DNA of 64,000 nt from Chitinophagales bacterium. GTDB taxonomy: Bacteria > Bacteroidota > Bacteroidia > Chitinophagales > JADIYW01. The notes beneath the pieces were generated by a model. The model was not told the DNA's origin and ran no database searches. It saw only the letters and a list, made by a program, of their open reading frames with translations. The position numbers and the translations under genes are program-made. How positions within the stretch are numbered: the first letter of the stretch is position 1; each line of letters opens with the position of its first letter. Positions 1 to 31,041 of the stretch are shown here, piece by piece. The stretch is from positions 1 through 64,000 of the forward strand of contig JAIBAX010000005.1 in NCBI GenBank assembly GCA_019694955.1, read 5' to 3'.

Positions 1-314
1 TACACGATTTTCTGCATTACTGCAATCAGTGACTAATTCTTTGCCGACACATGTTTTTAAATCAGGCACATATGCCGTGTTTGATCCACATGTGAACAAG
101 ACTCTTAGATTATGAAAGCAACGTATGAATCGTTGACAATTGGAACGGTCGCCGGCAAAATCCCGGCACTGCAGTCCTTTCATATAGATTAACAGATAAA
201 TGAATTCGAAAGAAAGAAAACAGCTAACTTACTTTTTAGTGATCCATCAACATATGTAACACTGATAAGCAGACAAACAAGAGTGATTAAAAGTCGAGTA
301 GATTCGACTCTCAT
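1..314 (-). CDS. 5' part of a eukaryotic-type secreted chitin-binding (peritrophin-A/CBM14) gene with one intron; runs off the window
   Basis: Read on the minus strand, an ATG at 314-312 opens a 27-codon exon encoding a typical signal peptide (MRVESTRLLITLVCLLISVT...). At 232 a GTAAGT donor begins a 56-nt intron that ends in AAAG at 177. The intron is phase 1. Splicing restores the frame into an exon that stays open to base 1. Its cysteines are spaced C-x9-C-x5-C-x9-C-x12-C-x8-C (from LQCRDFAGDRSNC to TDC), the pattern of chitin-binding type-2 domains of invertebrate peritrophins and chitinases. Unspliced, no bacterial signal peptide joins the domain. The start codon lies only 64 bp from the stop of the bacterial gene at 379, so the bacterial/eukaryotic boundary should fall in 315-378. 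The exon-intron model is read directly from the sequence; invertebrate origin is inferred from the family. Confidence 0.75.
177..232 (-). other. Predicted 56-nt spliceosomal intron in the chitin-binding gene
   Basis: The minus-strand sequence starts GTAAGT, has a pyrimidine-rich stretch with several TTTCTTTC-like runs, and ends GAAAG. It interrupts the codon after residue 27 in phase 1. Removing it joins signal peptide and chitin-binding domain in frame. Its length fits short-intron invertebrates. An alternative acceptor at CTGCAG eight bases further on would break the frame of the domain. Confidence 0.65.
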
Positions 315-378
315 GTTATACTTTATATTATCTCATTACCCCTAGTTCAAGGATAATCTTAGAATAAGAACATAAATG

Positions 379-7110: not shown

Positions 7111-7707
7111 TTATGGTTCTAAAAGTTTCTTTAACTGATTTCGCTCCGCTTCTTTCTCGGAGAGATTATAACTTGGATTATCCTTATTTTGCGCAATTTC
7201 TGCTTCCAAAGCTTCTAAATACTGCTGTAAGTAGACCCTTTTCCCGGGAGAAACTGCTTCACTTGTCAGAATTACTTTGTTGACATTATCTTCTTTTAAT
7301 GTTTGTTCTTTATAGTTAACAGACTTGGTAACCTTTATCGGAGTAGCTTCTTTAACAGAGTTGCTAATCTGTAATGTAGGCTCAACTTTCTCATAAGTAA
7401 CATTACACTCCATACCGGAAAATATATTTGGATTTACTGGTGCAGAAGTTTGGGAAGCGCTACTATCTATTTTTTCCGTTTTGGGGAGAGATTGCTCCAA
7501 AGAAGCGCCCATTCTTTGCGCAGATCCCTCAGAAGTTGGCGTATTTGATGCATCAGGCTTATTAACATGCTCTTGCACGTTTACAGGCTTCGTCTGCTTA
7601 AGTTCTTTCTCATTTGAGGTGGCACTTCCCAAGTTAATACGTGGCGATTGACCATAAACGAAAGAAGAAATAATAAAAAGCAAAAGAGAAAAGTAAAATT
7701 TTGTCAT
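7111..7707 (-). CDS. Small secreted protein of unknown function (198 aa)
   Basis: A signal peptide (MTKFYFSLLLFIISSFVYGQ) is followed by a low-complexity, Ser/Thr/Lys/Glu-rich middle and a charged helical C-terminus (LEALEAEIAQNKDNPSYNL). I recognise no family. The gene precedes the 2240-aa T9SS protein by 9 bp on the same strand, so it may be its partner or chaperone-like companion, by position only. The tandem duplication starts inside this gene at 7436. This copy is complete, while the copy at 16044-16328 keeps only about the first 90 codons. Confidence 0.7.
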   Translation of the reverse strand: MTKFYFSLLLFIISSFVYGQSPRINLGSATSNEKELKQTKPVNVQEHVNKPDASNTPTSEGSAQRMGASLEQSLPKTEKIDSSASQTSAPVNPNIFSGMECNVTYEKVEPTLQISNSVKEATPIKVTKSVNYKEQTLKEDNVNKVILTSEAVSPGKRVYLQQYLEALEAEIAQNKDNPSYNLSEKEAERNQLKKLLEP

Positions 7708-7973
7708 GTTGGTATTTTATAGTTTAAGAATCAAGGTTAAATATAGTTAATAATACACTGATTATAAAAATATTTATGTGTATTCTTTTTGTTAAAAATG
7801 TGATTTCATCATATGCAAGTGAAGTAAAATTCATAAAAACAATATTTTTAATAATATACGTATTTAATAGTTTTAACATCTATGAATTTGATGGAAATTA
7901 TTTTATATAAACTTCGGAGTACAAAAACGTTTGGATAAATGAATAAATTCAACGCCACCAAATGCGGAACTAC

Positions 7974-9812
7974 TTACTGCTTGATTAGATGATTTTTCCT
8001 GACAATGAACCCATTATCACGTTCCAAGGTTATCCAATACACTCCTTTGCTCAAACTTGATAAGTTTATTGTTTTGAGAGTGGAGAATGAAGAAATATTT
8101 TCAGTGTAAACATTCTGTCCAAATGAATTATATACCTTTAATGCCATACTTCCTTGGTTTTCAGCCTCATTAATTTTAACAATAACGGATGTTGAAAACA
8201 CTTGGGGCATGACATCCAACAATAAATCACTCAGAACTAGGTTATTCCAATCATTTTTCTCCTCCGGCAAGTCGTAATCCCGAAAATAATTATCACCAAA
8301 AAGTACATCGCAATCATAATTACAACAACTCAATGAATGCTCACCTAATGAGTCGGGTTTTGCCAGCATTATATAATCACAAAGATTGCATTTATCACCA
8401 TCGATTTGATCATCTTTCCGATGTGCAACCAATGCGACATGAATATAATCATTTGTCTTTTTCACCGGATAATAAAACATTAAAGCCACCTTATCCTCCA
8501 TTTCCTTATAGATGTCTTGCGACTCAAAGCACTGATTGCTAAATTGAGGATTATAGCAGGAAAAATTGTGGTAGTTGAAGACACCACCATGACGCATTCC
8601 CTTTTGTGTCACCAAATGTGATACGCATCCCGGCAAATTCATAATATGGTCATGAATGGCGAAGCCCCCATAATAATAAAAACTTGAGTCCAATTCCCCA
8701 TTGTATTTAAAATTCCTCATCTGTCCACCACAAGGAGGATAAACATTATCTTCGGTGGCTTGCATGATGTGTATAGGAAACTTCTTATTCCCTACAAAAT
8801 ACTGGGTATCAGATAATTCTATCCAATTCAACTGAAGAATACCTGCACTCAATAAAAACAGTTTATCCCATTTGAGTTGAGTTGAGTCCATATTGGCATA
8901 ACGAAATAAGCTTCCGTGTTTTTCTTGCAAAGTGGTCATATTTCCGGTGCCGTCAGTACCTTCACTAACTGACACATTGGGTAAGTCATCTACGGCAAAC
9001 CCCGCCAACATTGCAAATCCGGATCCGGAACTATTCCCACATAAGGAAATACCGTTTGGGTTAATATTTAACGCCACTCTATTATTCAATAAATAGCCAT
9101 AAGCCGCAATAATGTCTTGAATATTCCTATAATTTGCTTCCAAAACCGAGTATTTATCACACTCCCCTTCACATTCACAATACTCATGAAACCAATATGC
9201 CCTTAATTCTGGCGTACCGTTCATGTTGGTAATACCTTTTACATCCCAGCCTTTTCGCATATCCAAAGCGACCACCAAATAGCCTTTCTGCGCCAAGTAT
9301 CTACATATGCTTTCATCTTGCTTTTTTATGGTAATCTCATCATTTGCAGTATTATAAATCCTATCCCAATAGCGCAAACCACCACCCAAAACAGGCTGAT
9401 CAAAGAAACCCTGCGCTCCACTCAGGTAAATAACGACATTCTTACATACTTCAGCATCGTTATCCAAAGAATATATCTTCATATTGACATTAACAGTAGA
9501 GTCCTGATCGCTGTAGCCATCTTTCATGGAGTACATTTCATAGAAATTGAAACACTTATTGCGAATGCTACTACCGGGAACGATTCCTGGAATATCAGAG
9601 GGATTATACCTATAAGGATCATCGAACTTTATAAGCTGATTCGGCTTCGGTTTATTGCCATTCTTCCAACATGTAGAGAGCGGATACGTTACATAAGGAC
9701 GATATTCAGTAATAATATTGCCGGAGAGATCATCTACATATCGAATCTGACCTTGCACCCACATACAGGGCAATAGCAAAACAGTAAAAATAACGTAACC
9801 AAGAATCTTCAT
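7974..9812 (-). CDS. Secreted alpha/beta-hydrolase-like protein with T9SS sorting domain (612 aa), copy A
   Basis: I place the start at 9812 rather than 9833, because MKILGYVIFTVLLLPCMWVQGQ is a clean signal peptide. The body resembles an alpha/beta-hydrolase: a strand-turn YLVVALDMRKGWD, a nucleophile elbow CGNSSGSGFA with Ser near residue 257, a possible acid in QATEDNVYPP (~354), and a possible His in MRHGG (~407). The C-terminal ~75 residues (ALKVYNSFGQNVYTENIS ... GVYWITLERDNG) form a type A T9SS sorting domain. It is probably an exported or surface-bound esterase or peptidase. The triad is inferred, not proven, and the substrate is unknown. The gene is duplicated intact at 16595-18433. 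Confidence 0.7.
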   Translation of the reverse strand: MKILGYVIFTVLLLPCMWVQGQIRYVDDLSGNIITEYRPYVTYPLSTCWKNGNKPKPNQLIKFDDPYRYNPSDIPGIVPGSSIRNKCFNFYEMYSMKDGYSDQDSTVNVNMKIYSLDNDAEVCKNVVIYLSGAQGFFDQPVLGGGLRYWDRIYNTANDEITIKKQDESICRYLAQKGYLVVALDMRKGWDVKGITNMNGTPELRAYWFHEYCECEGECDKYSVLEANYRNIQDIIAAYGYLLNNRVALNINPNGISLCGNSSGSGFAMLAGFAVDDLPNVSVSEGTDGTGNMTTLQEKHGSLFRYANMDSTQLKWDKLFLLSAGILQLNWIELSDTQYFVGNKKFPIHIMQATEDNVYPPCGGQMRNFKYNGELDSSFYYYGGFAIHDHIMNLPGCVSHLVTQKGMRHGGVFNYHNFSCYNPQFSNQCFESQDIYKEMEDKVALMFYYPVKKTNDYIHVALVAHRKDDQIDGDKCNLCDYIMLAKPDSLGEHSLSCCNYDCDVLFGDNYFRDYDLPEEKNDWNNLVLSDLLLDVMPQVFSTSVIVKINEAENQGSMALKVYNSFGQNVYTENISSFSTLKTINLSSLSKGVYWITLERDNGFIVRKNHLIKQ

Positions 9813-10016
9813 ATTTAAAAAACTAGCATACAAAGATAGGTTGCTATTTTAAAATCACCAGTTAAGAAGCAGTTACCCTTTTATTATTTTAGTGCTTCCA
9901 AAGTTTATGCCATGCACAAATATCTACTCGAAAAAAATGACCACTTTAGCGTCCATGCCATTCTATGAATTAATCATAATTTTAAATTCATTCTTGTAGG
10001 AAATAAAAAAAAGACT

Positions 10017-10024
10017 TAACTTTG
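10017..10024 (+). promoter_or_regulatory. Bacteroidota -7 box of tRNA-Met, copy A
   Basis: TAACTTTG matches the TAnnTTTG -7 consensus of the Bacteroidota primary sigma factor. A TTG at 9994-9996 sits about 20 bp upstream, where a -33 element is expected. Predicted transcription would begin near 10028, eight bases before the tRNA. Confidence 0.65.
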
Positions 10025-10035
10025 CGCCTCCAAAT

Positions 10036-10109
10036 GGCGAGGTAGCTCAGACGGTTAGAGCGTGGGATTCATAACCCCAAGGTCGGCGGTTCGATTCCGC
10101 TCTTCGCTA
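10036..10109 (+). tRNA. tRNA-Met (anticodon CAT), copy A
   Basis: The 74-nt cloverleaf has acceptor GGCGAGG pairing with CTTCGCT (one G-T at the first pair), a D-arm GCTC..GAGC, an anticodon loop TTCATAA with CAT at 10070-10072, and a T-loop TTCGATT. No CCA is encoded. The acceptor and D-loop look like elongator tRNA-Met, although a CAT anticodon alone does not exclude the lysidine-modified Ile isoacceptor. It is duplicated at 18657-18730. Confidence 0.92.
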
Positions 10110-10110
10110 C

Positions 10111-10144
10111 AAAAAAGGAAGTGAATATTCGCTTCCTTTTTTTT
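10111..10144 (+). terminator. Rho-independent terminator after tRNA-Met, copy A
   Basis: A hairpin with stem GGAAGTG/CGCTTCC, flanked by an A-run and followed by eight T residues, starts one base after the tRNA 3' end. The symmetrical A/T runs could make it work in both directions. Confidence 0.85.
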
Positions 10145-10240
10145 GTTATTACCGCCCGTCTCATTCCACATAAACAATAAATATTTTAGCAATTTTCTTT
10201 ACATTTTAAAAAAAATAAACGAAATTTGTAAAAAAAAGAA

Positions 10241-10540
10241 ATGGCTTTCTTTGACAATCAAACAGAAGTTTTACTGGATGAAGAGGTGGATATTCTTTTA
10301 GAAGACACCGCTCACGAGGCTGTATTGATGGTTTACAATGATGAGGTGAATACGTTTGAGTGGGTGATAGAATCTTTAGTACAAGTTTGTAAGCACACTT
10401 TTGAACAAGCAGAACAATGTTCACTTTTCATACATTTTAAAGGAAAATATGGGGTAAAGCATGGCAGCAAAAAAGACCTGCGCCCTATGAAAGACGCACT
10501 CCTTGATCGTGGCATATCTGCAACAGTAGAAGAATGTTAG
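10241..10540 (+). CDS. clpS: ATP-dependent Clp protease adaptor ClpS, copy A (99 aa)
   Basis: ClpS binds the N-terminal domain of ClpA/ClpC and delivers substrates with Leu, Phe, Tyr or Trp N-termini (N-degrons) to ClpP. The sequence has the family core VYNDEVNTFEWVIESL, where the ND turn helps form the N-degron pocket, and a later helical part ending LLDRGISATVEE. Its length is normal. The stop is one base before the aat start, so the two N-degron genes are cotranscribed. Aat makes the destabilising N-terminus that ClpS then recognises. The call is firm. Duplicated at 18862-19161. Confidence 0.9.
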   Translation: MAFFDNQTEVLLDEEVDILLEDTAHEAVLMVYNDEVNTFEWVIESLVQVCKHTFEQAEQCSLFIHFKGKYGVKHGSKKDLRPMKDALLDRGISATVEEC

Positions 10541-10541
10541 C

Positions 10542-11195
10542 ATGAAAATTCCCATAATTGGCAAAACATATACCTTCCCAAATCCAGAAAATGCTTATGA
10601 AGGAGTCGTTGCCATTGGTGGCGATTTATCTCCCCATAGATTACTAAACGCCTATAAAAATGGCATATTCCCATGGTTTTCTGAAGATGAACCCATCATC
10701 TGGTGGTGCCCCGACCCAAGGTTTGTCCTCTTTCCCAAAGATTTGATCATCAGCAAATCCATGAAAAAACTATTTGAAAAAAAAACATTTGAAATAACGA
10801 CCAATCATTGTTTTGCACAGGTCATCCAAGCTTGCGCCCAACAGAAACGCCCCGAGCAGGACGGAACATGGATAACGCAAGAAATGACAGATGCATATCT
10901 ACAATTACACAAATTGGGATATGCCCATAGTGTAGAAGTTTGGCAAGACAAACAATTGGTAGGTGGCTTATATGGTGTAATCATTGGAAAAGCCTTTTTT
11001 GGAGAATCAATGTTCTTCAAAGTGTCCAACGCTTCCAAATATGGGTTCATATGGTTGGTAAAACAACTCCAAGAACAAGGATTTCATTTTATCGACTGCC
11101 AAATAGAGACAAATCACCTAAAAAGTTTGGGAGCATCCCATATTCCCAGAAAAGAATTCTTACAGTTAGTAAAACTTGCAGTAAGAAGTGATTAG
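10542..11195 (+). CDS. aat: Leucyl/phenylalanyl-tRNA--protein transferase, copy A (217 aa)
   Basis: Aat transfers Leu or Phe from aminoacyl-tRNA onto N-terminal Arg or Lys of proteins, marking them for ClpS-ClpAP. Family signatures are visible: FPNPENAYEGVVAIGGDLSP near the N-terminus, NGIFPWFSEDEPIIWWCPDPR (split here as NGIFPWF and WWCPDPR), GLYGVIIGKAFFGESMF, and FHFIDCQIETNHLKSLGA near the C-terminus. Length is typical. It follows clpS by one base. The gene converges on the SRPBCC gene, overlapping it by 4 bp at the 3' ends. Duplicated at 19163-19816. Confidence 0.95.
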   Translation: MKIPIIGKTYTFPNPENAYEGVVAIGGDLSPHRLLNAYKNGIFPWFSEDEPIIWWCPDPRFVLFPKDLIISKSMKKLFEKKTFEITTNHCFAQVIQACAQQKRPEQDGTWITQEMTDAYLQLHKLGYAHSVEVWQDKQLVGGLYGVIIGKAFFGESMFFKVSNASKYGFIWLVKQLQEQGFHFIDCQIETNHLKSLGASHIPRKEFLQLVKLAVRSD

Positions 11196-11656
11196 TACCT
11201 ACTGTTGAACAATTCTTCCAGTTTTTTATAGCGATAATCAAAAATATCCCGAACTTGTTTATGCACAAATAAAGCTCCTGCAATTTGACCCAAAATGCCC
11301 TTTCCGATATCATAGTGTAAAATATCCGTCATTTCAACGCCATTTTCAACAGTTTTAAAGTGATGTTCATGGTGCCATAGCTTGTAAGGTCCCTGCCTTT
11401 GCTCGTCTACAAAAAAAAGGTCATCCTTAACATGTGTAATTTCTGTCACCCAATTCATGGGAAAATTTAGAAAAGGCCTAATCTTATACCGAATAAATAA
11501 TCCTTCGTAAACCTTATCAGGAAGTTCTGACAAGATTTCGAAACACATCCCATTAGGAGTAATATCGTTAAGGTTCTTCGGAGAAGTGAAAAAATCCCAT
11601 ATTCCCTCTTTTGTGCCGTTTAGTAACTGCACGCGTTTTAGGTGAACAATGCTCAT
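11192..11656 (-). CDS. SRPBCC-family (START-like) protein, copy A (154 aa)
   Basis: The single domain fits the SRPBCC helix-grip fold often annotated as a cell-division-inhibitor-like ligand-binding protein. Visible blocks are IWDFFTSPKNLNDITP near the N-terminus, FFVDEQRQGPYKLWHHEHHF in the middle, and a terminal helix VRDIFDYRYKKLEELF. The ligand is unknown. Its ATG overlaps the stop of the upstream tspO gene by one base (TAATG), implying translational coupling. Confidence 0.75.
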   Translation of the reverse strand: MSIVHLKRVQLLNGTKEGIWDFFTSPKNLNDITPNGMCFEILSELPDKVYEGLFIRYKIRPFLNFPMNWVTEITHVKDDLFFVDEQRQGPYKLWHHEHHFKTVENGVEMTDILHYDIGKGILGQIAGALFVHKQVRDIFDYRYKKLEELFNSRY

Positions 11657-12129
11657 TAATTAAGTTGATATAAGGTGAAATTTAAAAATGTGGCAAAACT
11701 CACCCAACATAAGTAAGGTATTTGCAAATAAGCAGCGGTTTTGTTAATACCATGAAAAAACACAATCATCCCTATAATGCTCAGCCACAGCAAAACAATT
11801 TCTACCAAAGCCCATCCAATCTCCTGAAAATAGAAGAATAAAAAACTCCAAATAAAATTCAGCAATAGCTGTCCACCAAAAACCAAATACGCTCGAAACA
11901 ATTGCTGCCCACGCGCTGTTTGGATAACCATATAAAAAGAAACCCCCATCAACAGATACAAGAATGTCCAAACAGGAGCAAAAACGGAATTAGGTGGATT
12001 AAAAGAAGGCTTCACCAAAGTAATATACCATGAATCGATGCCGTTGGCAGTAGCCATTCCTGCAATACCGCCTACACCGAGTGGAACGAGTATGCAAACC
12101 AATAATTTAAAGAAATTAGAAATTCTCAT
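11656..12129 (-). CDS. tspO: TspO/MBR family tryptophan-rich sensory protein, copy A
   Basis: TspO is a five-helix membrane protein that binds tetrapyrroles and sterols. The start is set at 12129 (MRISNFFKLLV), since the upstream 18 codons are not family-like. Signatures seen are WYITLVKPSFNPPNSVFAPV and WTFLYLLMGVSFYMV, followed by the conserved NFIWSFLFF helix. It is cotranscribed with the SRPBCC gene through a one-base stop/start overlap. Duplicated at 20277-20750. Confidence 0.9.
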   Translation of the reverse strand: MRISNFFKLLVCILVPLGVGGIAGMATANGIDSWYITLVKPSFNPPNSVFAPVWTFLYLLMGVSFYMVIQTARGQQLFRAYLVFGGQLLLNFIWSFLFFYFQEIGWALVEIVLLWLSIIGMIVFFHGINKTAAYLQIPYLCWVSFATFLNFTLYQLN

Positions 12130-12245
12130 GTGAACATTTGAATAAAGAACTAAAAAAGCACAAGAATGTTCAACACATAGCAATTTAAATACCGAAGGTT
12201 AAAATTCACTTAACAAACATATTCTGTTTTTTATTTCTCATTGTG

Positions 12246-12253
12246 TAAATTTG
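12246..12253 (+). promoter_or_regulatory. -7 box of the aceB-aceA operon, copy A
   Basis: TAAATTTG fits TAnnTTTG and would start transcription near 12257, giving a leader of about 36 nt before the aceB ATG. A good -33 TTTG is not obvious upstream, so this promoter may need an activator. Confidence 0.55.
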
Positions 12254-12292
12254 CGCATCTTCAATTTTGTATAGTAAAAAGTTTAAATTAAG

Positions 12293-13882
12293 ATGTATCA
12301 AGTACCACAAGGAGTAGAAATAAAAGGCGCATTTTCGCCTGAATTTGCCAGTATCATCACCCCGGAAGCATTAGACTTTGCCGTTCATCTGCAAAGAAAA
12401 TTCAACAACACTAGAAAAGAAAGACTACAAGCCCGTGTGGAGCGCCAAAAATCATTGGATCAGGGCAATCTTCCTGACTTTTTCCCTGAAACCAAGGAAA
12501 TCAGGGAGTCTGATTGGACAGTAGCTGCCTGGCCGGCAGATATGAACGACAGAAGGGTGGAAATCACCGGACCTGTAGACAGAAAAATGATTATCAACGC
12601 CCTCAACTCCGGCGCTAAAGTATTCATGGCCGACTTTGAAGACTCCAACTCCCCTACTTGGGACAATAATATCAATGGACAAATCAACCTCAAAGATGCC
12701 GTTAGAAAAACGGCTACCTTCACCAACGAAAATGGCAAAGTATATAAGCTAAACGATCAAATCGCCACCCTATTTGTGCGCCCAAGAGGTTGGCATTTAG
12801 AAGAGAAAAATGTTTTAGTTGATGGTGAGAACATGAGCGGTTCCATTTGGGACTTCGCCCTGTATTTTTTCCATAATGCAAAAGAAAGGCTGGCGCTAGG
12901 CAGCGGCATTTACTATTACCTACCAAAAATGGAGCATTATTTAGAAGCCCGCCTCTGGAACGATATTTTCGTAGAAGCACAAAACTATTTAAGCGTTCCG
13001 CAAGGTTCTATCAAAGCAACCGTTTTGATAGAAACCATCATGGCCACCTTCCAATTGCACGAAATCCTCTTCGAACTCAAAGAACACTCTGCCGGATTGA
13101 ATTGCGGAAGATGGGATTATATCTTCTCGTTCATCAAAAGACTAGTAAAAAATGAAGCATTCCTCGTTCCGGACAGAGCGCAAGTAACCATGGTATCGCC
13201 ATTCATGAAAGCATATTCAGAATTGGTCATCAAAACTTGCCATAAGCGTGGCGCCTTTGCCATGGGCGGTATGGCAGCACAAATCCCCATAAAAGACAAT
13301 CCTGAAGCCAACGAAATCGCCCTCAATAAAGTGAGAGCCGACAAAGAACGTGAAGCAAAAGCAGGACATGATGGCACGTGGGTAGCACATCCGGCCTTGG
13401 TTTCTATTGCCATGGAAGAATTCAATAAATACATGCCGACACCTAACCAAATACATGTAAAGCGTGAAGATGTACAAGTGTCCGCAAAAGATTTATTAGA
13501 AGTTCCCACCGGCACCATTACCATGAATGGACTGCGCAGCAATATCGACGTAGGCATACAGTACTTAGAAGCATGGTTGCGTGGCAATGGTTGCGTGCCC
13601 ATCCACAACTTGATGGAAGATGCTGCTACAGCAGAAATTTCCAGAACACAAGTATGGCAATGGGTACATCATCCCGATGCAAAACTCGACGATGGCACCA
13701 GGGTAACACCGGAATTGGTAAAAACCATCGTTCAAGAGTACAAAAATCAATACAAATCTGCACTTGGTGAGGCAGCTTATGCAACATCGAAGTTTGAAAA
13801 AGCGTCTGAAATCTTTGAGAAGATGAGTTTAGCAGATGAATTGAGTGAATTCCTTACACTCGAAGCGTATAACTATATTTAA
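12293..13882 (+). CDS. aceB: Malate synthase A, copy A (529 aa)
   Basis: It condenses glyoxylate with acetyl-CoA to malate, the second step of the glyoxylate shunt, which lets cells grow on acetate or fatty acids. The family signature AKVFMADFEDSNSPTW is present around residue 110, and GWHLEEKNVL and AFAMGGMAAQIPIKDNPEAN are typical of the isoform-A TIM barrel. Length is normal for the A type and too short for type G. Isocitrate lyase follows after 38 bp, forming an aceBA operon under the -7 box at 12246. Duplicated unchanged at 20914-22503. Confidence 0.97.
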   Translation: MYQVPQGVEIKGAFSPEFASIITPEALDFAVHLQRKFNNTRKERLQARVERQKSLDQGNLPDFFPETKEIRESDWTVAAWPADMNDRRVEITGPVDRKMIINALNSGAKVFMADFEDSNSPTWDNNINGQINLKDAVRKTATFTNENGKVYKLNDQIATLFVRPRGWHLEEKNVLVDGENMSGSIWDFALYFFHNAKERLALGSGIYYYLPKMEHYLEARLWNDIFVEAQNYLSVPQGSIKATVLIETIMATFQLHEILFELKEHSAGLNCGRWDYIFSFIKRLVKNEAFLVPDRAQVTMVSPFMKAYSELVIKTCHKRGAFAMGGMAAQIPIKDNPEANEIALNKVRADKEREAKAGHDGTWVAHPALVSIAMEEFNKYMPTPNQIHVKREDVQVSAKDLLEVPTGTITMNGLRSNIDVGIQYLEAWLRGNGCVPIHNLMEDAATAEISRTQVWQWVHHPDAKLDDGTRVTPELVKTIVQEYKNQYKSALGEAAYATSKFEKASEIFEKMSLADELSEFLTLEAYNYI

Positions 13883-13920
13883 TTTGAAACAACTTTTTTT
13901 AATTATAATAACAAATAAAA

Positions 13921-15204
13921 ATGGCAACAAGACAGGAAAGAATTGAAGCTCTTAAAAAAGATTGGGCTGAGAATCCAAGGTGGAAAGGTATCAAAAGACC
14001 TTACACCGCCGAAGAAGTAGTTAGCATTAGCGGTTCTGTTGAAGTAGAATATACTTTAGCAAAAAATGGTGCTAATAAATTGTGGAATTATTTGCAAACA
14101 CGTGCTTGGACAGCCGGCTTAGGTGCACTTACCGGAAACCAAGCCGTACAAGAAGTACAAGCAGGCATGCCTGCTATCTATCTTTCAGGATGGCAAGTAG
14201 CCGCAGATGCAAACCTTGGAATGGAAATGTATCCCGATCAATCTTTATACCCGGCAAATTCAGTTCCCGCTGTTGTTAGAAGAATAAACAACGCATTTGC
14301 TCGCCGCGACCAAATCCAATGGTTGAACCAAGATGGCAACATCGATTGGTTTGCACCTATCGTTGCTGACGCAGAAGCCGGATTTGGTGGCAACCTCAAC
14401 GCCTTCGAACTCATGAAAGGCATGATCGAAGCAGGTGCAGCAGGTGTTCACTACGAAGACCAATTGGCGTCCGCAAAAAAATGCGGACACTTAGGTGGAA
14501 AAGTATTGGTACCAACACAAGAAGCCATCAACAAATTGGTAGCAGCACGTTTAGCTGCCGACTCAATGGGCGTACCTACCCTATTGATCGCTCGTACCGA
14601 TGCAGAAGCAGCTACATTGATAACTTCTGACATCGACGAAAGAGACCAAAGATTCATCGTTGACACAAAAAGAACCTCCGAAGGTTTCTTCAACGTAAAA
14701 AATGGCATCGAAGCAGGTATCGACAGAGCTTGCTCCTACGCAGAATACGCAGACCTTATCTGGATGGAAACAGGAAATCCCGACTTAGGCTTAGCAAGAG
14801 AATTCGCACAAGGCGTACATGCAAGATTCCCCGGTAAGATGTTGGCATACAACTGCTCACCATCTTTCAACTGGGCAAAATACATGGACGTAAAAGCCAT
14901 GGAAACCTTCCGTGAAGACTTAGCAGCAATGGGTTACAAATTCCAGTTCATCACCTTGGCAGGCTTCCACGCATTGAACTCTTCCATGTTCAGCCTTTCC
15001 AAAGACTATATGGCAAGAGGAATGGCAGGATTCTCCGAAATGCAACAAAGAGAGTTCGCGATGGAAAAAGACGGCTTCGCAGCCATCAAACACCAGTCAT
15101 TCGTAGGTACAGGATACTTCGACGCTATCCAAAACATAGCACAACAAGGACTCTCTTCTACCACCGCATTGGCAGGAAGTACAGAAACAGAGCAATTCCA
15201 CTAG
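13921..15204 (+). CDS. aceA: Isocitrate lyase, copy A (427 aa)
   Basis: It cleaves isocitrate to glyoxylate and succinate. The catalytic signature is [14 protein letters not shown] (Cys is the general-base residue of the KKCGH motif). The Mg-binding region [20 protein letters not shown] and the barrel entry [13 protein letters not shown] are also clear. Length matches the bacterial tetrameric enzyme. It is the second gene of the aceBA operon. A strong hairpin follows the stop. Duplicated at 22542-23825. Confidence 0.97.
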
Positions 15205-15215
15205 GCATTGCTTAC

Positions 15216-15266
15216 GTATAAACAAGAATGTGCCACACCCAAAAGTGTGGCACATCTTGTTTATAC
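15216..15266. terminator. Long hairpin after aceA, copy A
   Basis: About 22 base pairs with a single bulge form between GTATAAACAAGA-TGTGCCACAC and its complement, around an ACCCAAAA-type loop. It starts 11 bases after the aceA stop. There is no long T-run after it, so it may act as an mRNA-stabilising 3' structure as much as a terminator. A related TGCCACAC/GTGTGNCAC palindrome is present at 55230-55255. Confidence 0.7.
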
Positions 15267-15951
15267 AAAACGATGTTGCAGTACAAATGCATAATACCAA
15301 TTGTATAAATAATCACAAAAGTGATTATAAAATATCCCATTATAGAACCAATTCCTTGTTCTCGTGTCTTTCTAGAACACGAGTAGACTACTTTATAATT
15401 CATCTAGTTATAATTTAAAATTCAACATTTAGCATCAAATCATGGCACCCGGGCGGGCTTTCCGCTTATATCTTTTTTGCTTAAAGGAAGTGTAATGCAA
15501 AAAAACTACACGAACCTAAAAAGTCGCAGGACGAATTACGCAAATCGCAAAACGCAAAAAAGGATACCGCTACAATCCCTGGTGCGGGAAAGTTGTTAAA
15601 AGATAAGCGTAGGTTTTAACCGAAATCAATCACTTGAAAAGACATGATAAAATTTCATATTTGAAGGTAGTTATTTGTCGACGGACGACGGTCACAGTCG
15701 ACAGATGAACGTAGTCTGTGTATAAAAGTTATCCTGAACGAACCTTCTTTAAAAACGCTGCGATACAAAAGCAAAAAATGTTTATTTTTGAGAAGTAAAT
15801 TGCTACGAAGTAGTGGGTATAAACATATTAACAGCAATGCGAAAAAGACAGTGCAATAGGACTCTGACTGATAAAAAAAAATCATATGAAAGTAAAACAA
15901 GCCTAGTGATAAACCAACTTGAATTGTCTAAAATTAGAAAAAGAGAACAGA
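15267..15951. other. About 700 bp with no convincing gene, copy A
   Basis: This stretch holds small hairpins (ATAATCAC/GTGATTAT near 15310; CTCGTGT/ACACGAG at 15360-15383), the palindromic element at 15448-15588, and a GTCGAC..GTCGAC arrangement near 15677-15701. The open frames here are short and have no family resemblance. The same sequence recurs at 23888-24572. Confidence 0.6.
15448..15588. repeat. REP-like imperfect palindrome, copy A
   Basis: A left arm CCCGGGCGGGCTTTCCGCT..ATCTTTTTTGC pairs imperfectly with a right arm GCAAAAAAGGATACCGCT..CCTGGTGCGGG across a ~70-bp loop. Elements of this look (GGGCTTTCCGC .. CCCTGGTGCGGG) are, from memory, scattered intergenically in Bacteroidota genomes. 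Its function is unknown. Confidence 0.5.
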
Positions 15952-16007
15952 ATGAAAAAGTTATATTTTTTTACCAACCCGCATATTTTGTTTTTAGTTC
16001 CGCAAGC

Positions 16008-16058
16008 TAATCATTTGGTTTTTGACTTTCTGAAAACAACCGATTATCCTCTAGCAAC
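16008..16058 (+). repeat. 51-bp templated filler at the duplication junction, copied from dndC
   Basis: The 51 bases are identical to 29517-29567, in the same orientation, inside the DndC-like gene (codons about 207-224). The first four bases (TAAT) are also the end of copy A. The last two (AC) are also the start of copy B. So 45 bases (16012-16056) are extra to the two copies. This is the pattern expected when a copying polymerase switches template twice at microhomologies. Confidence 0.9.
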
Positions 16059-16328
16059 TGGTGCAGAAGTTTGGGAAGCGCTACTATCTATTTTTTCCGT
16101 TTTGGGGAGAGATTGCTCCAAAGAAGCGCCCATTCTTTGCGCAGATCCCTCAGAAGTTGGCGTATTTGATGCATCAGGCTTATTAACATGCTCTTGCACG
16201 TTTACAGGCTTCGTCTGCTTAAGTTCTTTCTCATTTGAGGTGGCACTTCCCAAGTTAATACGTGGCGATTGACCATAAACGAAAGAAGAAATAATAAAAA
16301 GCAAAAGAGAAAAGTAAAATTTTGTCAT
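16044..16328 (-). pseudogene. Truncated copy of the 198-aa secreted protein gene
   Basis: It carries the signal peptide and first ~90 codons of 7111-7707, identical, with the native upstream region. The reading frame then crosses the duplication junction and ends after a few codons read from the dndC-derived filler (..SQTSAPVARG). The downstream 2240-aa partner gene is not duplicated. It may still be expressed as a short secreted fragment but is best called a fragment. Confidence 0.85.
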
Positions 16329-16594
16329 GTTGGTATTTTATAGTTTAAGAATCAAGGTTAAATATAGTTAATAATACACTGATTATAAAAATATTTATGT
16401 GTATTCTTTTTGTTAAAAATGTGATTTCATCATATGCAAGTGAAGTAAAATTCATAAAAACAATATTTTTAATAATATACGTATTTAATAGTTTTAACAT
16501 CTATGAATTTGATGGAAATTATTTTATATAAACTTCGGAGTACAAAAACGTTTGGATAAATGAATAAATTCAACGCCACCAAATGCGGAACTAC

Positions 16595-18433
16595 TTACTG
16601 CTTGATTAGATGATTTTTCCTGACAATGAACCCATTATCACGTTCCAAGGTTATCCAATACACTCCTTTGCTCAAACTTGATAAGTTTATTGTTTTGAGA
16701 GTGGAGAATGAAGAAATATTTTCAGTGTAAACATTCTGTCCAAATGAATTATATACCTTTAATGCCATACTTCCTTGGTTTTCAGCCTCATTAATTTTAA
16801 CAATAACGGATGTTGAAAACACTTGGGGCATGACATCCAACAATAAATCACTCAGAACTAGGTTATTCCAATCATTTTTCTCCTCCGGCAAGTCGTAATC
16901 CCGAAAATAATTATCACCAAAAAGTACATCGCAATCATAATTACAACAACTCAATGAATGCTCACCTAATGAGTCGGGTTTTGCCAGCATTATATAATCA
17001 CAAAGATTGCATTTATCACCATCGATTTGATCATCTTTCCGATGTGCAACCAATGCGACATGAATATAATCATTTGTCTTTTTCACCGGATAATAAAACA
17101 TTAAAGCCACCTTATCCTCCATTTCCTTATAGATGTCTTGCGACTCAAAGCACTGATTGCTAAATTGAGGATTATAGCAGGAAAAATTGTGGTAGTTGAA
17201 GACACCACCATGACGCATTCCCTTTTGTGTCACCAAATGTGATACGCATCCCGGCAAATTCATAATATGGTCATGAATGGCGAAGCCCCCATAATAATAA
17301 AAACTTGAGTCCAATTCCCCATTGTATTTAAAATTCCTCATCTGTCCACCACAAGGAGGATAAACATTATCTTCGGTGGCTTGCATGATGTGTATAGGAA
17401 ACTTCTTATTCCCTACAAAATACTGGGTATCAGATAATTCTATCCAATTCAACTGAAGAATACCTGCACTCAATAAAAACAGTTTATCCCATTTGAGTTG
17501 AGTTGAGTCCATATTGGCATAACGAAATAAGCTTCCGTGTTTTTCTTGCAAAGTGGTCATATTTCCGGTGCCGTCAGTACCTTCACTAACTGACACATTG
17601 GGTAAGTCATCTACGGCAAACCCCGCCAACATTGCAAATCCGGATCCGGAACTATTCCCACATAAGGAAATACCGTTTGGGTTAATATTTAACGCCACTC
17701 TATTATTCAATAAATAGCCATAAGCCGCAATAATGTCTTGAATATTCCTATAATTTGCTTCCAAAACCGAGTATTTATCACACTCCCCTTCACATTCACA
17801 ATACTCATGAAACCAATATGCCCTTAATTCTGGCGTACCGTTCATGTTGGTAATACCTTTTACATCCCAGCCTTTTCGCATATCCAAAGCGACCACCAAA
17901 TAGCCTTTCTGCGCCAAGTATCTACATATGCTTTCATCTTGCTTTTTTATGGTAATCTCATCATTTGCAGTATTATAAATCCTATCCCAATAGCGCAAAC
18001 CACCACCCAAAACAGGCTGATCAAAGAAACCCTGCGCTCCACTCAGGTAAATAACGACATTCTTACATACTTCAGCATCGTTATCCAAAGAATATATCTT
18101 CATATTGACATTAACAGTAGAGTCCTGATCGCTGTAGCCATCTTTCATGGAGTACATTTCATAGAAATTGAAACACTTATTGCGAATGCTACTACCGGGA
18201 ACGATTCCTGGAATATCAGAGGGATTATACCTATAAGGATCATCGAACTTTATAAGCTGATTCGGCTTCGGTTTATTGCCATTCTTCCAACATGTAGAGA
18301 GCGGATACGTTACATAAGGACGATATTCAGTAATAATATTGCCGGAGAGATCATCTACATATCGAATCTGACCTTGCACCCACATACAGGGCAATAGCAA
18401 AACAGTAAAAATAACGTAACCAAGAATCTTCAT
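16595..18433 (-). CDS. Secreted alpha/beta-hydrolase-like T9SS protein, copy B (612 aa)
   Basis: The translation is identical to 7974-9812, including the signal peptide, the GNSSGSG elbow and the T9SS sorting domain. Its own upstream region is included, so it should be expressed like copy A. Confidence 0.7.
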   Translation of the reverse strand: MKILGYVIFTVLLLPCMWVQGQIRYVDDLSGNIITEYRPYVTYPLSTCWKNGNKPKPNQLIKFDDPYRYNPSDIPGIVPGSSIRNKCFNFYEMYSMKDGYSDQDSTVNVNMKIYSLDNDAEVCKNVVIYLSGAQGFFDQPVLGGGLRYWDRIYNTANDEITIKKQDESICRYLAQKGYLVVALDMRKGWDVKGITNMNGTPELRAYWFHEYCECEGECDKYSVLEANYRNIQDIIAAYGYLLNNRVALNINPNGISLCGNSSGSGFAMLAGFAVDDLPNVSVSEGTDGTGNMTTLQEKHGSLFRYANMDSTQLKWDKLFLLSAGILQLNWIELSDTQYFVGNKKFPIHIMQATEDNVYPPCGGQMRNFKYNGELDSSFYYYGGFAIHDHIMNLPGCVSHLVTQKGMRHGGVFNYHNFSCYNPQFSNQCFESQDIYKEMEDKVALMFYYPVKKTNDYIHVALVAHRKDDQIDGDKCNLCDYIMLAKPDSLGEHSLSCCNYDCDVLFGDNYFRDYDLPEEKNDWNNLVLSDLLLDVMPQVFSTSVIVKINEAENQGSMALKVYNSFGQNVYTENISSFSTLKTINLSSLSKGVYWITLERDNGFIVRKNHLIKQ

Positions 18434-18637
18434 ATTTAAAAAACTAGCATACAAAGATAGGTTGCTATTTTAAAATCACCAGTTAAGAAGCAGTTACCCT
18501 TTTATTATTTTAGTGCTTCCAAAGTTTATGCCATGCACAAATATCTACTCGAAAAAAATGACCACTTTAGCGTCCATGCCATTCTATGAATTAATCATAA
18601 TTTTAAATTCATTCTTGTAGGAAATAAAAAAAAGACT

Positions 18638-18645
18638 TAACTTTG
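18638..18645 (+). promoter_or_regulatory. -7 box of tRNA-Met, copy B
   Basis: TAACTTTG at the position equivalent to 10017-10024, with the same upstream sequence. Confidence 0.65.
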
Positions 18646-18656
18646 CGCCTCCAAAT

Positions 18657-18730
18657 GGCGAGGTAGCTCAGACGGTTAGAGCGTGGGATTCATAACCCCA
18701 AGGTCGGCGGTTCGATTCCGCTCTTCGCTA
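18657..18730 (+). tRNA. tRNA-Met (anticodon CAT), copy B
   Basis: Identical to 10036-10109. The anticodon CAT is at 18691-18693. It shares the flanking promoter and terminator of copy A. Confidence 0.92.
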
Positions 18731-18731
18731 C

Positions 18732-18765
18732 AAAAAAGGAAGTGAATATTCGCTTCCTTTTTTTT
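18732..18765 (+). terminator. Terminator after tRNA-Met, copy B
   Basis: Same A-flanked hairpin and T-run as at 10111-10144. Confidence 0.85.
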
Positions 18766-18861
18766 GTTATTACCGCCCGTCTCATTCCACATAAACAATA
18801 AATATTTTAGCAATTTTCTTTACATTTTAAAAAAAATAAACGAAATTTGTAAAAAAAAGAA

Positions 18862-19161
18862 ATGGCTTTCTTTGACAATCAAACAGAAGTTTTACTGGAT
18901 GAAGAGGTGGATATTCTTTTAGAAGACACCGCTCACGAGGCTGTATTGATGGTTTACAATGATGAGGTGAATACGTTTGAGTGGGTGATAGAATCTTTAG
19001 TACAAGTTTGTAAGCACACTTTTGAACAAGCAGAACAATGTTCACTTTTCATACATTTTAAAGGAAAATATGGGGTAAAGCATGGCAGCAAAAAAGACCT
19101 GCGCCCTATGAAAGACGCACTCCTTGATCGTGGCATATCTGCAACAGTAGAAGAATGTTAG
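18862..19161 (+). CDS. clpS: ClpS adaptor, copy B (99 aa)
   Basis: Identical in translation to 10241-10540, one base upstream of the second aat. Both N-degron genes are therefore present twice. Confidence 0.9.
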   Translation: MAFFDNQTEVLLDEEVDILLEDTAHEAVLMVYNDEVNTFEWVIESLVQVCKHTFEQAEQCSLFIHFKGKYGVKHGSKKDLRPMKDALLDRGISATVEEC

Positions 19162-19162
19162 C

Positions 19163-19816
19163 ATGAAAATTCCCATAATTGGCAAAACATATACCTTCCC
19201 AAATCCAGAAAATGCTTATGAAGGAGTCGTTGCCATTGGTGGCGATTTATCTCCCCATAGATTACTAAACGCCTATAAAAATGGCATATTCCCATGGTTT
19301 TCTGAAGATGAACCCATCATCTGGTGGTGCCCCGACCCAAGGTTTGTCCTCTTTCCCAAAGATTTGATCATCAGCAAATCCATGAAAAAACTATTTGAAA
19401 AAAAAACATTTGAAATAACGACCAATCATTGTTTTGCACAGGTCATCCAAGCTTGCGCCCAACAGAAACGCCCCGAGCAGGACGGAACATGGATAACGCA
19501 AGAAATGACAGATGCATATCTACAATTACACAAATTGGGATATGCCCATAGTGTAGAAGTTTGGCAAGACAAACAATTGGTAGGTGGCTTATATGGTGTA
19601 ATCATTGGAAAAGCCTTTTTTGGAGAATCAATGTTCTTCAAAGTGTCCAACGCTTCCAAATATGGGTTCATATGGTTGGTAAAACAACTCCAAGAACAAG
19701 GATTTCATTTTATCGACTGCCAAATAGAGACAAATCACCTAAAAAGTTTGGGAGCATCCCATATTCCCAGAAAAGAATTCTTACAGTTAGTAAAACTTGC
19801 AGTAAGAAGTGATTAG
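19163..19816 (+). CDS. aat: Leucyl/phenylalanyl-tRNA--protein transferase, copy B (217 aa)
   Basis: Identical in translation to 10542-11195, with the same 4-bp convergent overlap with the SRPBCC gene. Confidence 0.95.
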   Translation: MKIPIIGKTYTFPNPENAYEGVVAIGGDLSPHRLLNAYKNGIFPWFSEDEPIIWWCPDPRFVLFPKDLIISKSMKKLFEKKTFEITTNHCFAQVIQACAQQKRPEQDGTWITQEMTDAYLQLHKLGYAHSVEVWQDKQLVGGLYGVIIGKAFFGESMFFKVSNASKYGFIWLVKQLQEQGFHFIDCQIETNHLKSLGASHIPRKEFLQLVKLAVRSD

Positions 19817-20277
19817 TACCTACTGTTGAACAATTCTTCCAGTTTTTTATAGCGATAATCAAAAATATCCCGAACTTGTTTATGCACAAATAAAGCTCCT
19901 GCAATTTGACCCAAAATGCCCTTTCCGATATCATAGTGTAAAATATCCGTCATTTCAACGCCATTTTCAACAGTTTTAAAGTGATGTTCATGGTGCCATA
20001 GCTTGTAAGGTCCCTGCCTTTGCTCGTCTACAAAAAAAAGGTCATCCTTAACATGTGTAATTTCTGTCACCCAATTCATGGGAAAATTTAGAAAAGGCCT
20101 AATCTTATACCGAATAAATAATCCTTCGTAAACCTTATCAGGAAGTTCTGACAAGATTTCGAAACACATCCCATTAGGAGTAATATCGTTAAGGTTCTTC
20201 GGAGAAGTGAAAAAATCCCATATTCCCTCTTTTGTGCCGTTTAGTAACTGCACGCGTTTTAGGTGAACAATGCTCAT
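19813..20277 (-). CDS. SRPBCC-family protein, copy B (154 aa)
   Basis: Identical in translation to 11192-11656, coupled to tspO by the same one-base overlap. Confidence 0.75.
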   Translation of the reverse strand: MSIVHLKRVQLLNGTKEGIWDFFTSPKNLNDITPNGMCFEILSELPDKVYEGLFIRYKIRPFLNFPMNWVTEITHVKDDLFFVDEQRQGPYKLWHHEHHFKTVENGVEMTDILHYDIGKGILGQIAGALFVHKQVRDIFDYRYKKLEELFNSRY

Positions 20278-20750
20278 TAATTAAGTTGATATAAGGTGAA
20301 ATTTAAAAATGTGGCAAAACTCACCCAACATAAGTAAGGTATTTGCAAATAAGCAGCGGTTTTGTTAATACCATGAAAAAACACAATCATCCCTATAATG
20401 CTCAGCCACAGCAAAACAATTTCTACCAAAGCCCATCCAATCTCCTGAAAATAGAAGAATAAAAAACTCCAAATAAAATTCAGCAATAGCTGTCCACCAA
20501 AAACCAAATACGCTCGAAACAATTGCTGCCCACGCGCTGTTTGGATAACCATATAAAAAGAAACCCCCATCAACAGATACAAGAATGTCCAAACAGGAGC
20601 AAAAACGGAATTAGGTGGATTAAAAGAAGGCTTCACCAAAGTAATATACCATGAATCGATGCCGTTGGCAGTAGCCATTCCTGCAATACCGCCTACACCG
20701 AGTGGAACGAGTATGCAAACCAATAATTTAAAGAAATTAGAAATTCTCAT
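20277..20750 (-). CDS. tspO: TspO/MBR family protein, copy B
   Basis: Identical to 11656-12129. The start at MRISNFFKLLV is chosen for the same reason. Confidence 0.9.
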   Translation of the reverse strand: MRISNFFKLLVCILVPLGVGGIAGMATANGIDSWYITLVKPSFNPPNSVFAPVWTFLYLLMGVSFYMVIQTARGQQLFRAYLVFGGQLLLNFIWSFLFFYFQEIGWALVEIVLLWLSIIGMIVFFHGINKTAAYLQIPYLCWVSFATFLNFTLYQLN

Positions 20751-20866
20751 GTGAACATTTGAATAAAGAACTAAAAAAGCACAAGAATGTTCAACACATA
20801 GCAATTTAAATACCGAAGGTTAAAATTCACTTAACAAACATATTCTGTTTTTTATTTCTCATTGTG

Positions 20867-20874
20867 TAAATTTG
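20867..20874 (+). promoter_or_regulatory. -7 box of aceB-aceA, copy B
   Basis: TAAATTTG, the counterpart of 12246-12253. The second glyoxylate operon keeps its own promoter. Confidence 0.55.
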
Positions 20875-20913
20875 CGCATCTTCAATTTTGTATAGTAAAA
20901 AGTTTAAATTAAG

Positions 20914-22503
20914 ATGTATCAAGTACCACAAGGAGTAGAAATAAAAGGCGCATTTTCGCCTGAATTTGCCAGTATCATCACCCCGGAAGCATTAGACTTT
21001 GCCGTTCATCTGCAAAGAAAATTCAACAACACTAGAAAAGAAAGACTACAAGCCCGTGTGGAGCGCCAAAAATCATTGGATCAGGGCAATCTTCCTGACT
21101 TTTTCCCTGAAACCAAGGAAATCAGGGAGTCTGATTGGACAGTAGCTGCCTGGCCGGCAGATATGAACGACAGAAGGGTGGAAATCACCGGACCTGTAGA
21201 CAGAAAAATGATTATCAACGCCCTCAACTCCGGCGCTAAAGTATTCATGGCCGACTTTGAAGACTCCAACTCCCCTACTTGGGACAATAATATCAATGGA
21301 CAAATCAACCTCAAAGATGCCGTTAGAAAAACGGCTACCTTCACCAACGAAAATGGCAAAGTATATAAGCTAAACGATCAAATCGCCACCCTATTTGTGC
21401 GCCCAAGAGGTTGGCATTTAGAAGAGAAAAATGTTTTAGTTGATGGTGAGAACATGAGCGGTTCCATTTGGGACTTCGCCCTGTATTTTTTCCATAATGC
21501 AAAAGAAAGGCTGGCGCTAGGCAGCGGCATTTACTATTACCTACCAAAAATGGAGCATTATTTAGAAGCCCGCCTCTGGAACGATATTTTCGTAGAAGCA
21601 CAAAACTATTTAAGCGTTCCGCAAGGTTCTATCAAAGCAACCGTTTTGATAGAAACCATCATGGCCACCTTCCAATTGCACGAAATCCTCTTCGAACTCA
21701 AAGAACACTCTGCCGGATTGAATTGCGGAAGATGGGATTATATCTTCTCGTTCATCAAAAGACTAGTAAAAAATGAAGCATTCCTCGTTCCGGACAGAGC
21801 GCAAGTAACCATGGTATCGCCATTCATGAAAGCATATTCAGAATTGGTCATCAAAACTTGCCATAAGCGTGGCGCCTTTGCCATGGGCGGTATGGCAGCA
21901 CAAATCCCCATAAAAGACAATCCTGAAGCCAACGAAATCGCCCTCAATAAAGTGAGAGCCGACAAAGAACGTGAAGCAAAAGCAGGACATGATGGCACGT
22001 GGGTAGCACATCCGGCCTTGGTTTCTATTGCCATGGAAGAATTCAATAAATACATGCCGACACCTAACCAAATACATGTAAAGCGTGAAGATGTACAAGT
22101 GTCCGCAAAAGATTTATTAGAAGTTCCCACCGGCACCATTACCATGAATGGACTGCGCAGCAATATCGACGTAGGCATACAGTACTTAGAAGCATGGTTG
22201 CGTGGCAATGGTTGCGTGCCCATCCACAACTTGATGGAAGATGCTGCTACAGCAGAAATTTCCAGAACACAAGTATGGCAATGGGTACATCATCCCGATG
22301 CAAAACTCGACGATGGCACCAGGGTAACACCGGAATTGGTAAAAACCATCGTTCAAGAGTACAAAAATCAATACAAATCTGCACTTGGTGAGGCAGCTTA
22401 TGCAACATCGAAGTTTGAAAAAGCGTCTGAAATCTTTGAGAAGATGAGTTTAGCAGATGAATTGAGTGAATTCCTTACACTCGAAGCGTATAACTATATT
22501 TAA
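20914..22503 (+). CDS. aceB: Malate synthase A, copy B (529 aa)
   Basis: Identical in translation to 12293-13882. With the second aceA it would double the gene dosage of the glyoxylate shunt, if the duplication is real. Confidence 0.97.
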   Translation: MYQVPQGVEIKGAFSPEFASIITPEALDFAVHLQRKFNNTRKERLQARVERQKSLDQGNLPDFFPETKEIRESDWTVAAWPADMNDRRVEITGPVDRKMIINALNSGAKVFMADFEDSNSPTWDNNINGQINLKDAVRKTATFTNENGKVYKLNDQIATLFVRPRGWHLEEKNVLVDGENMSGSIWDFALYFFHNAKERLALGSGIYYYLPKMEHYLEARLWNDIFVEAQNYLSVPQGSIKATVLIETIMATFQLHEILFELKEHSAGLNCGRWDYIFSFIKRLVKNEAFLVPDRAQVTMVSPFMKAYSELVIKTCHKRGAFAMGGMAAQIPIKDNPEANEIALNKVRADKEREAKAGHDGTWVAHPALVSIAMEEFNKYMPTPNQIHVKREDVQVSAKDLLEVPTGTITMNGLRSNIDVGIQYLEAWLRGNGCVPIHNLMEDAATAEISRTQVWQWVHHPDAKLDDGTRVTPELVKTIVQEYKNQYKSALGEAAYATSKFEKASEIFEKMSLADELSEFLTLEAYNYI

Positions 22504-22541
22504 TTTGAAACAACTTTTTTTAATTATAATAACAAATAAAA

Positions 22542-23825
22542 ATGGCAACAAGACAGGAAAGAATTGAAGCTCTTAAAAAAGATTGGGCTGAGAATCCAAG
22601 GTGGAAAGGTATCAAAAGACCTTACACCGCCGAAGAAGTAGTTAGCATTAGCGGTTCTGTTGAAGTAGAATATACTTTAGCAAAAAATGGTGCTAATAAA
22701 TTGTGGAATTATTTGCAAACACGTGCTTGGACAGCCGGCTTAGGTGCACTTACCGGAAACCAAGCCGTACAAGAAGTACAAGCAGGCATGCCTGCTATCT
22801 ATCTTTCAGGATGGCAAGTAGCCGCAGATGCAAACCTTGGAATGGAAATGTATCCCGATCAATCTTTATACCCGGCAAATTCAGTTCCCGCTGTTGTTAG
22901 AAGAATAAACAACGCATTTGCTCGCCGCGACCAAATCCAATGGTTGAACCAAGATGGCAACATCGATTGGTTTGCACCTATCGTTGCTGACGCAGAAGCC
23001 GGATTTGGTGGCAACCTCAACGCCTTCGAACTCATGAAAGGCATGATCGAAGCAGGTGCAGCAGGTGTTCACTACGAAGACCAATTGGCGTCCGCAAAAA
23101 AATGCGGACACTTAGGTGGAAAAGTATTGGTACCAACACAAGAAGCCATCAACAAATTGGTAGCAGCACGTTTAGCTGCCGACTCAATGGGCGTACCTAC
23201 CCTATTGATCGCTCGTACCGATGCAGAAGCAGCTACATTGATAACTTCTGACATCGACGAAAGAGACCAAAGATTCATCGTTGACACAAAAAGAACCTCC
23301 GAAGGTTTCTTCAACGTAAAAAATGGCATCGAAGCAGGTATCGACAGAGCTTGCTCCTACGCAGAATACGCAGACCTTATCTGGATGGAAACAGGAAATC
23401 CCGACTTAGGCTTAGCAAGAGAATTCGCACAAGGCGTACATGCAAGATTCCCCGGTAAGATGTTGGCATACAACTGCTCACCATCTTTCAACTGGGCAAA
23501 ATACATGGACGTAAAAGCCATGGAAACCTTCCGTGAAGACTTAGCAGCAATGGGTTACAAATTCCAGTTCATCACCTTGGCAGGCTTCCACGCATTGAAC
23601 TCTTCCATGTTCAGCCTTTCCAAAGACTATATGGCAAGAGGAATGGCAGGATTCTCCGAAATGCAACAAAGAGAGTTCGCGATGGAAAAAGACGGCTTCG
23701 CAGCCATCAAACACCAGTCATTCGTAGGTACAGGATACTTCGACGCTATCCAAAACATAGCACAACAAGGACTCTCTTCTACCACCGCATTGGCAGGAAG
23801 TACAGAAACAGAGCAATTCCACTAG
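22542..23825 (+). CDS. aceA: Isocitrate lyase, copy B (427 aa)
   Basis: Identical in translation to 13921-15204, including the KKCGH catalytic motif. Confidence 0.97.
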
Positions 23826-23836
23826 GCATTGCTTAC

Positions 23837-23887
23837 GTATAAACAAGAATGTGCCACACCCAAAAGTGTGGCACATCTTGTTTATAC
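23837..23887. terminator. Long hairpin after aceA, copy B
   Basis: Same ~22-bp, single-bulge stem as at 15216-15266. Confidence 0.7.
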
Positions 23888-24068
23888 AAAACGATGTTGC
23901 AGTACAAATGCATAATACCAATTGTATAAATAATCACAAAAGTGATTATAAAATATCCCATTATAGAACCAATTCCTTGTTCTCGTGTCTTTCTAGAACA
24001 CGAGTAGACTACTTTATAATTCATCTAGTTATAATTTAAAATTCAACATTTAGCATCAAATCATGGCA

Positions 24069-24209
24069 CCCGGGCGGGCTTTCCGCTTATATCTTTTTTG
24101 CTTAAAGGAAGTGTAATGCAAAAAAACTACACGAACCTAAAAAGTCGCAGGACGAATTACGCAAATCGCAAAACGCAAAAAAGGATACCGCTACAATCCC
24201 TGGTGCGGG
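24069..24209. repeat. REP-like imperfect palindrome, copy B
   Basis: Counterpart of 15448-15588. Confidence 0.5.
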
Positions 24210-24807
24210 AAAGTTGTTAAAAGATAAGCGTAGGTTTTAACCGAAATCAATCACTTGAAAAGACATGATAAAATTTCATATTTGAAGGTAGTTATTTGTC
24301 GACGGACGACGGTCACAGTCGACAGATGAACGTAGTCTGTGTATAAAAGTTATCCTGAACGAACCTTCTTTAAAAACGCTGCGATACAAAAGCAAAAAAT
24401 GTTTATTTTTGAGAAGTAAATTGCTACGAAGTAGTGGGTATAAACATATTAACAGCAATGCGAAAAAGACAGTGCAATAGGACTCTGACTGATAAAAAAA
24501 AATCATATGAAAGTAAAACAAGCCTAGTGATAAACCAACTTGAATTGTCTAAAATTAGAAAAAGAGAACAGAATGAAAAAGTTATATTTTTTTACCAACC
24601 CGCATATTTTGTTTTTAGTTCCGCAAGCTAATATGGCACATTGCCTTTTCCCCATAAACGCACTGCCCAAACGTCAGGAAAAGTCAAAGAGCCAAATTGC
24701 CAACGGATGTGGTTAACAGGTTAATAAGTAAAGCCGTTTTTCACTCAATAAAAGACAATAATTTGGTTACTTTGTAGCTTAATAAAATGGAATCTTCATA
24801 AGAAAAA
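24210..24807. other. Gene-poor stretch leading into the Dnd island
   Basis: Up to 24632 this is the right end of copy B; from 24633 it is unique. A 47-codon frame at 24573-24716 opens like a signal peptide (MKKLYFF...ILFLVP) and loses that character at the copy boundary, so it may be the stump of an exported gene cut by island insertion. The last ~50 bases contain AATTTGG and TTACTTTG, a poor match to a -33/-7 pair, as the only promoter candidate for the Dnd-like operon. Confidence 0.4.
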
Positions 24808-30000: not shown

Positions 30001-30009
30001 AAGATAAAA

Positions 30010-31035: not shown

Positions 31036-31041
31036 AACTAT

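Follow-up and report, generated by a model that had tools for sequence, protein, structure and literature searches.

Animal gene fragments at the ends of two contigs of a Bacteroidota draft genome, most probably joined to bacterial DNA in error

The window, the whole stretch of 64,000 nucleotides analysed here (G000:C9:1-64000), begins at the terminus of contig C9 of a Bacteroidota draft genome. Judged by its exons, intron and encoded domain, the first 314 bases of this stretch are genuinely part of an animal gene for a putative chitin-binding protein. A second animal gene fragment was found at the end of another contig, C17. By far the best explanation, to which we give a probability of about 0.92, is that both contig ends are chimeric, animal DNA having been joined in error to bacterial contigs. 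The features are listed in Table 1.

Table 1. Features at the two contig ends that carry animal-type sequence (window coordinates unless a contig is named)
Feature	Position	Strand	Basis
Second exon, incomplete at the contig end, with the six-Cys CBM_14 / peritrophin-A domain	1-176	-	Pfam match, Cys gaps; contig base 1 = window base 1
56-nt phase-1 intron, GTAAGT...AAAG	177-232	-	Sequence and shuffle test
First coding exon, ATG and signal-peptide-like MRVESTRLLITLVCLLISVTYVDG/SLK	233-314	-	Sequence; codon score
Probable animal/bacterial junction stretch, from the stop codon of the T9SS gene to the ATG of the animal gene	315-378	.	Sequence
Intact bacterial T9SS-secreted protein, 2240 aa	379-7101	-	P_proprotein, GBD_T9SS_assoc, Por_Secre_tail (Pfam)
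PIP4K exon, 132 residues, at the right terminus of C17 (43,235 bp)	G000:C17:43233-42838	-	Pfam PIP5K 2.5e-39

On the minus strand, the ATG at 314 opens a signal-peptide-like reading frame, as the initial annotation had proposed and as a re-reading of the sequence confirmed. Unspliced, this frame meets a stop at 189-191 and yields 41 residues, ending upstream of the CBM_14 domain. Once 232-177 is removed, the frame of the signal-peptide exon continues without a stop as far as base 1, and the spliced product is 86 amino acids long and open. The signal peptide and the domain lie in different frames, parted by a stop codon and the intron, and not in one uninterrupted bacterial open reading frame. 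The proposed phase-1 intron was likewise borne out, with its GTAAGT donor at 232 and its AG acceptor ending at 177; an AAAG acceptor, with A at -3, is uncommon. As a null for the intron, the 74 nt that separate the signal peptide and the domain were dinucleotide-shuffled 5000 times. Only 0.6% of the shuffles contained an intron that had a GTRAGT donor (GTAAGT or GTGAGT), kept the frame and was free of stops, which makes the intron credible.

The C-terminal part of the spliced product matches Pfam CBM_14 (PF01607) at 5.4e-9 and 36.5 bits (cut-off 22.1; 36.1 bits in the genome-wide profile search), in agreement with the peritrophin-A assignment made from the sequence alone. The six Cys had also been said to show the exact spacing of the family, and this was an overstatement. 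The gaps in the domain are 9, 5, 9, 12 and 8, and the published peritrophin-A spacing is CX13-18CX5CX9-11CX10-13CX7-8C (PMC7663561): four of the five gaps fit, and the first, 9 against 13-18, is too short. The Pfam match begins at profile position 10, beyond the first Cys. The exons, intron, domain and T9SS neighbour of the earlier description thus stand, and the exact spacing does not. With animal CBM_14 / peritrophin-A proteins the fragment shares a signal peptide, six Cys, a Pfam match above the cut-off and a spliced gene; it differs from them in its short first Cys gap, in comprising the N-terminal part only and in lying on a bacterial contig. In the genome of its animal, going by the family, its spliced transcript would encode the start of a small secreted protein with a putative chitin-binding domain. 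In the bacterium it would be no gene and have no function, and the signal-peptide start is not expected to yield a product.

Because window base 1 is also base 1 of C9, the animal-type gene is truncated by the contig end. The gene therefore has bacterial sequence on one side only, the contig ending inside it. On that one side the T9SS gene is intact, with its Por_Secre_tail; the distance of 64 bp to this gene that was first reported is correct, and that of the animal-type gene to the contig end is 0 bp. The junction between animal and bacterial DNA most likely falls somewhere within these 64 bp, from the layout of the sequence. Comparison of the C9 end with other contig ends gave no match except a chance AT-rich word of 17 bases, and the animal piece of C9 shared no terminal k-mer with the other contig ends compared, so that the comparison offered no other bacterial continuation.

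The draft assembly comprises 4,135,380 bases in 103 contigs and is estimated to be 100% complete and 0.48% contaminated. Contig ends share exact overlaps of 126-127 bases, the mark of a de Bruijn assembly with k=127. A genome search found no bacterial 16S rRNA, as in many metagenome-assembled genomes (MAGs). The neighbouring ornithine aminotransferase has named relatives only among distant Bacteroidota, mostly MAGs, the best at 74% identity. From these signs (MAG-type relatives, k-mer overlaps, no 16S found) we infer that the draft is itself a MAG.

The codon usage of the fragment is not that of the genome in which it was assembled. Exon 1 scored at the 0.36 percentile, and exon 2 at the 0.24 percentile, of native-gene stretches of equal length, although the Cys-rich composition may account for part of the low score. 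In a dicodon scan, the left end of C9 had the sixth lowest coding score (that is, the sixth least bacterial) among 187 contig ends. The genome-wide profile search gave no second CBM_14 match above the cut-off, and none of 60 related genomes had the domain. A search for the cuticle domain Chitin_bind_4 gave no match in the genome, but the controls gave no match either. Close relatives of the spliced protein were absent from the bacterial genome contigs, viral contigs and phages searched.

In a sample of 395 Bacteroidota genomes, a single CBM_14 match was found besides that of the window's genome. This gene (L250:1453-1797, minus strand, in genome G256) comes from the same class of Bacteroidota and likewise encodes a CBM_14 domain (29.8 bits). 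It is a single intronless open reading frame of 114 aa with its own signal peptide, internal to its contig and lying between bacterial genes, whereas the window fragment carries an intron and is contig-terminal. The G256 gene thus has the genuine look of a domesticated bacterial CBM_14, and the window piece is unlike it.

The second animal fragment, at the right terminus of C17, came from a survey of both ends of nearly all contigs (seven contigs shorter than 3 kb read as N), in which ends without native-like coding were inspected. Its best relatives of solved structure are type 2 beta, alpha and gamma PI5P4Ks (E 4e-45 to 3e-36), and type I PIP5Ks match it far more weakly, at 3e-14 or worse. 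Outside Holozoa no PIP4K, as opposed to PIP5K, is known (PMC6523245). The homology ends at GTTAGT, like the end of an exon, and a bacterial ORF6N gene starts some 120-140 bases further inward. The GC3 of this exon, 0.52, is above that of every native gene used for training (at most 0.476). The terminal position of the C17 fragment is in part a matter of ascertainment, since the survey was aimed at contig ends, yet a whole-genome search with PF01504 gave a match only at this same terminus. A Pfam scan that covered part of the other suspect contig ends revealed no additional eukaryotic domain, and the animal tips of C9 and C17 had no adapter remnants and no words of at least 11 bases in common. 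Together, CBM_14 and PIP4K point to a holozoan source, most likely an animal.

Two unrelated animal fragments of about 0.3-0.4 kb, both truncated by a contig terminus and both joined intergenically to intact bacterial genes, are what would be expected from chimeric contig tips. Foreign sequence stands at the terminus at both the left end of C9 and the right end of C17. The GUNC study describes chimeric contigs derived from misassembly as a known, rarer error of MAGs (PMC8201837), and the present case resembles these in that foreign sequence sits on a bacterial contig tip and recurs on a second contig of the bin. It departs from them in that the foreign partner is an animal, with fragments too short to register in the 0.48% contamination estimate. 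We infer that the join is artefactual and would picture its origin as follows. The C9 piece would derive from a metazoan gene for a secreted CBM_14 protein, by way of animal DNA that was sequenced in the same library, and the de Bruijn assembler probably lengthened the tip of the contig along a chimeric fragment, or a few of them, as far as these went.

A chimeric contig was among the three readings that the initial annotation had offered, and it is strongly supported by the terminal position, the second animal fragment on C17, the non-native codons and the intact intron. Its other two, a real transfer and bacterial DNA within a eukaryotic assembly, are not supported. Taken together, the chance that the joins are real DNA is slim. 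Bacterial pieces would then lie in host chromosomes, or animal genes in the bacterial genome, and the boundaries would fall at C9:315-378 and close to C17:42,700-42,830. If the joins were real, they would represent an unusual exchange of DNA between a bacterium and an animal. A genuine transfer would have placed an intron-bearing animal CBM_14 gene beside the T9SS gene, and the fragment is indeed contiguous with bacterial sequence in the assembly and on the same strand as that gene; the G256 gene shows that CBM_14 genes do occur in Bacteroidota. Against this, with the intron intact the signal peptide and the domain are not in the same frame, the codon usage is unadapted, the gene is truncated by the contig end and missing from all 60 relatives, and an unrelated animal fragment lies at the end of C17. 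It is very unlikely that independent transfers would both have kept their introns and ended up at contig termini, and we consider transfer highly improbable. The reverse arrangement, an insertion of bacterial DNA into the nuclear genome of an animal with the ends of C9 and C17 as true host/bacterium boundaries, is just as improbable. It would account for the pieces of animal genes, with an intron or the start of one, at two termini, as well as the intact bacterial genes at the boundary on both contigs. However, the bin is a complete and clean 4.1-Mb Bacteroidota draft, so that at most minor copies could be integrated, and at neither end does the animal sequence exceed about 0.5 kb.

Two further readings concern the C9 fragment itself. 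It could encode a native bacterial CBM_14 protein starting at the ATG at 183 (61 aa, MKGLQC...), the upstream signal peptide and intron being coincidental; the domain does lie within one open frame, and bacterial CBM_14 genes exist. But a protein from this ATG would have no signal peptide, its codon usage falls at the 0.24 percentile noted above, the 60 relatives hold no homologue, and the spliced structure would arise by chance in about 0.6% of cases, which makes this reading exceedingly improbable. Baculovirus genes seldom have introns, and this counts, as do the lack of any relative in viral contigs or phages and the cellular nature of the PIP4K gene on C17, against a fragment of an invertebrate virus. 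In favour of such an origin, some granuloviruses carry CBM14 genes. A granulovirus paper deals with CBM14 and peritrophin-A (PMC4746121). We regard the probability of a viral origin as negligible.

With the contig ends read as chimeric, a draft rated 100% complete and 0.48% contaminated still has pieces of animal genes fused to its contig tips, and an automated search would misread such tips as eukaryote-to-bacterium transfers. The animal DNA in the sample is also a lead on the habitat of the bacterium. The suggestion that the bacterium lives with an invertebrate draws some slight support from the presence of animal DNA in the library, which could be that of a host or prey, environmental DNA or cross-contamination. 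An association with an animal is plausible; that the source animal is the bacterium's host is a guess.

Several other features of the assembly and of the window were observed. The two termini of contig C42 (106,006 bp) form an exact inverted repeat of 127 bp, an overlap of k-mer length, and contig C41 has the same length as C42 to the base, with different end sequences. The region at 28897-35241 of the window resembles the neighbourhood of a DNA phosphorothioation (Dnd-like) defence system, with a PAPS-reductase-like protein encoded at 28897-30000 and, at 33037-35241, a dnd_restrict_1-like helicase (400 bits, under the cut-off of 600). The window also contains an exact tandem duplication of 8576 bp (7436-16011 and 16057-24632), which comprises a tRNA, a Leu/Phe-tRNA transferase, malate synthase A, isocitrate lyase and a T9SS esterase-like protein. 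Its 45-bp spacer (16012-16056) falls in 51 bp identical to 29517-29567 of the same contig, a segment held by the PAPS-reductase-like gene and copied into the spacer. This may be a loop artefact of the assembler, or the segment may have been duplicated very recently, with a templated insertion.
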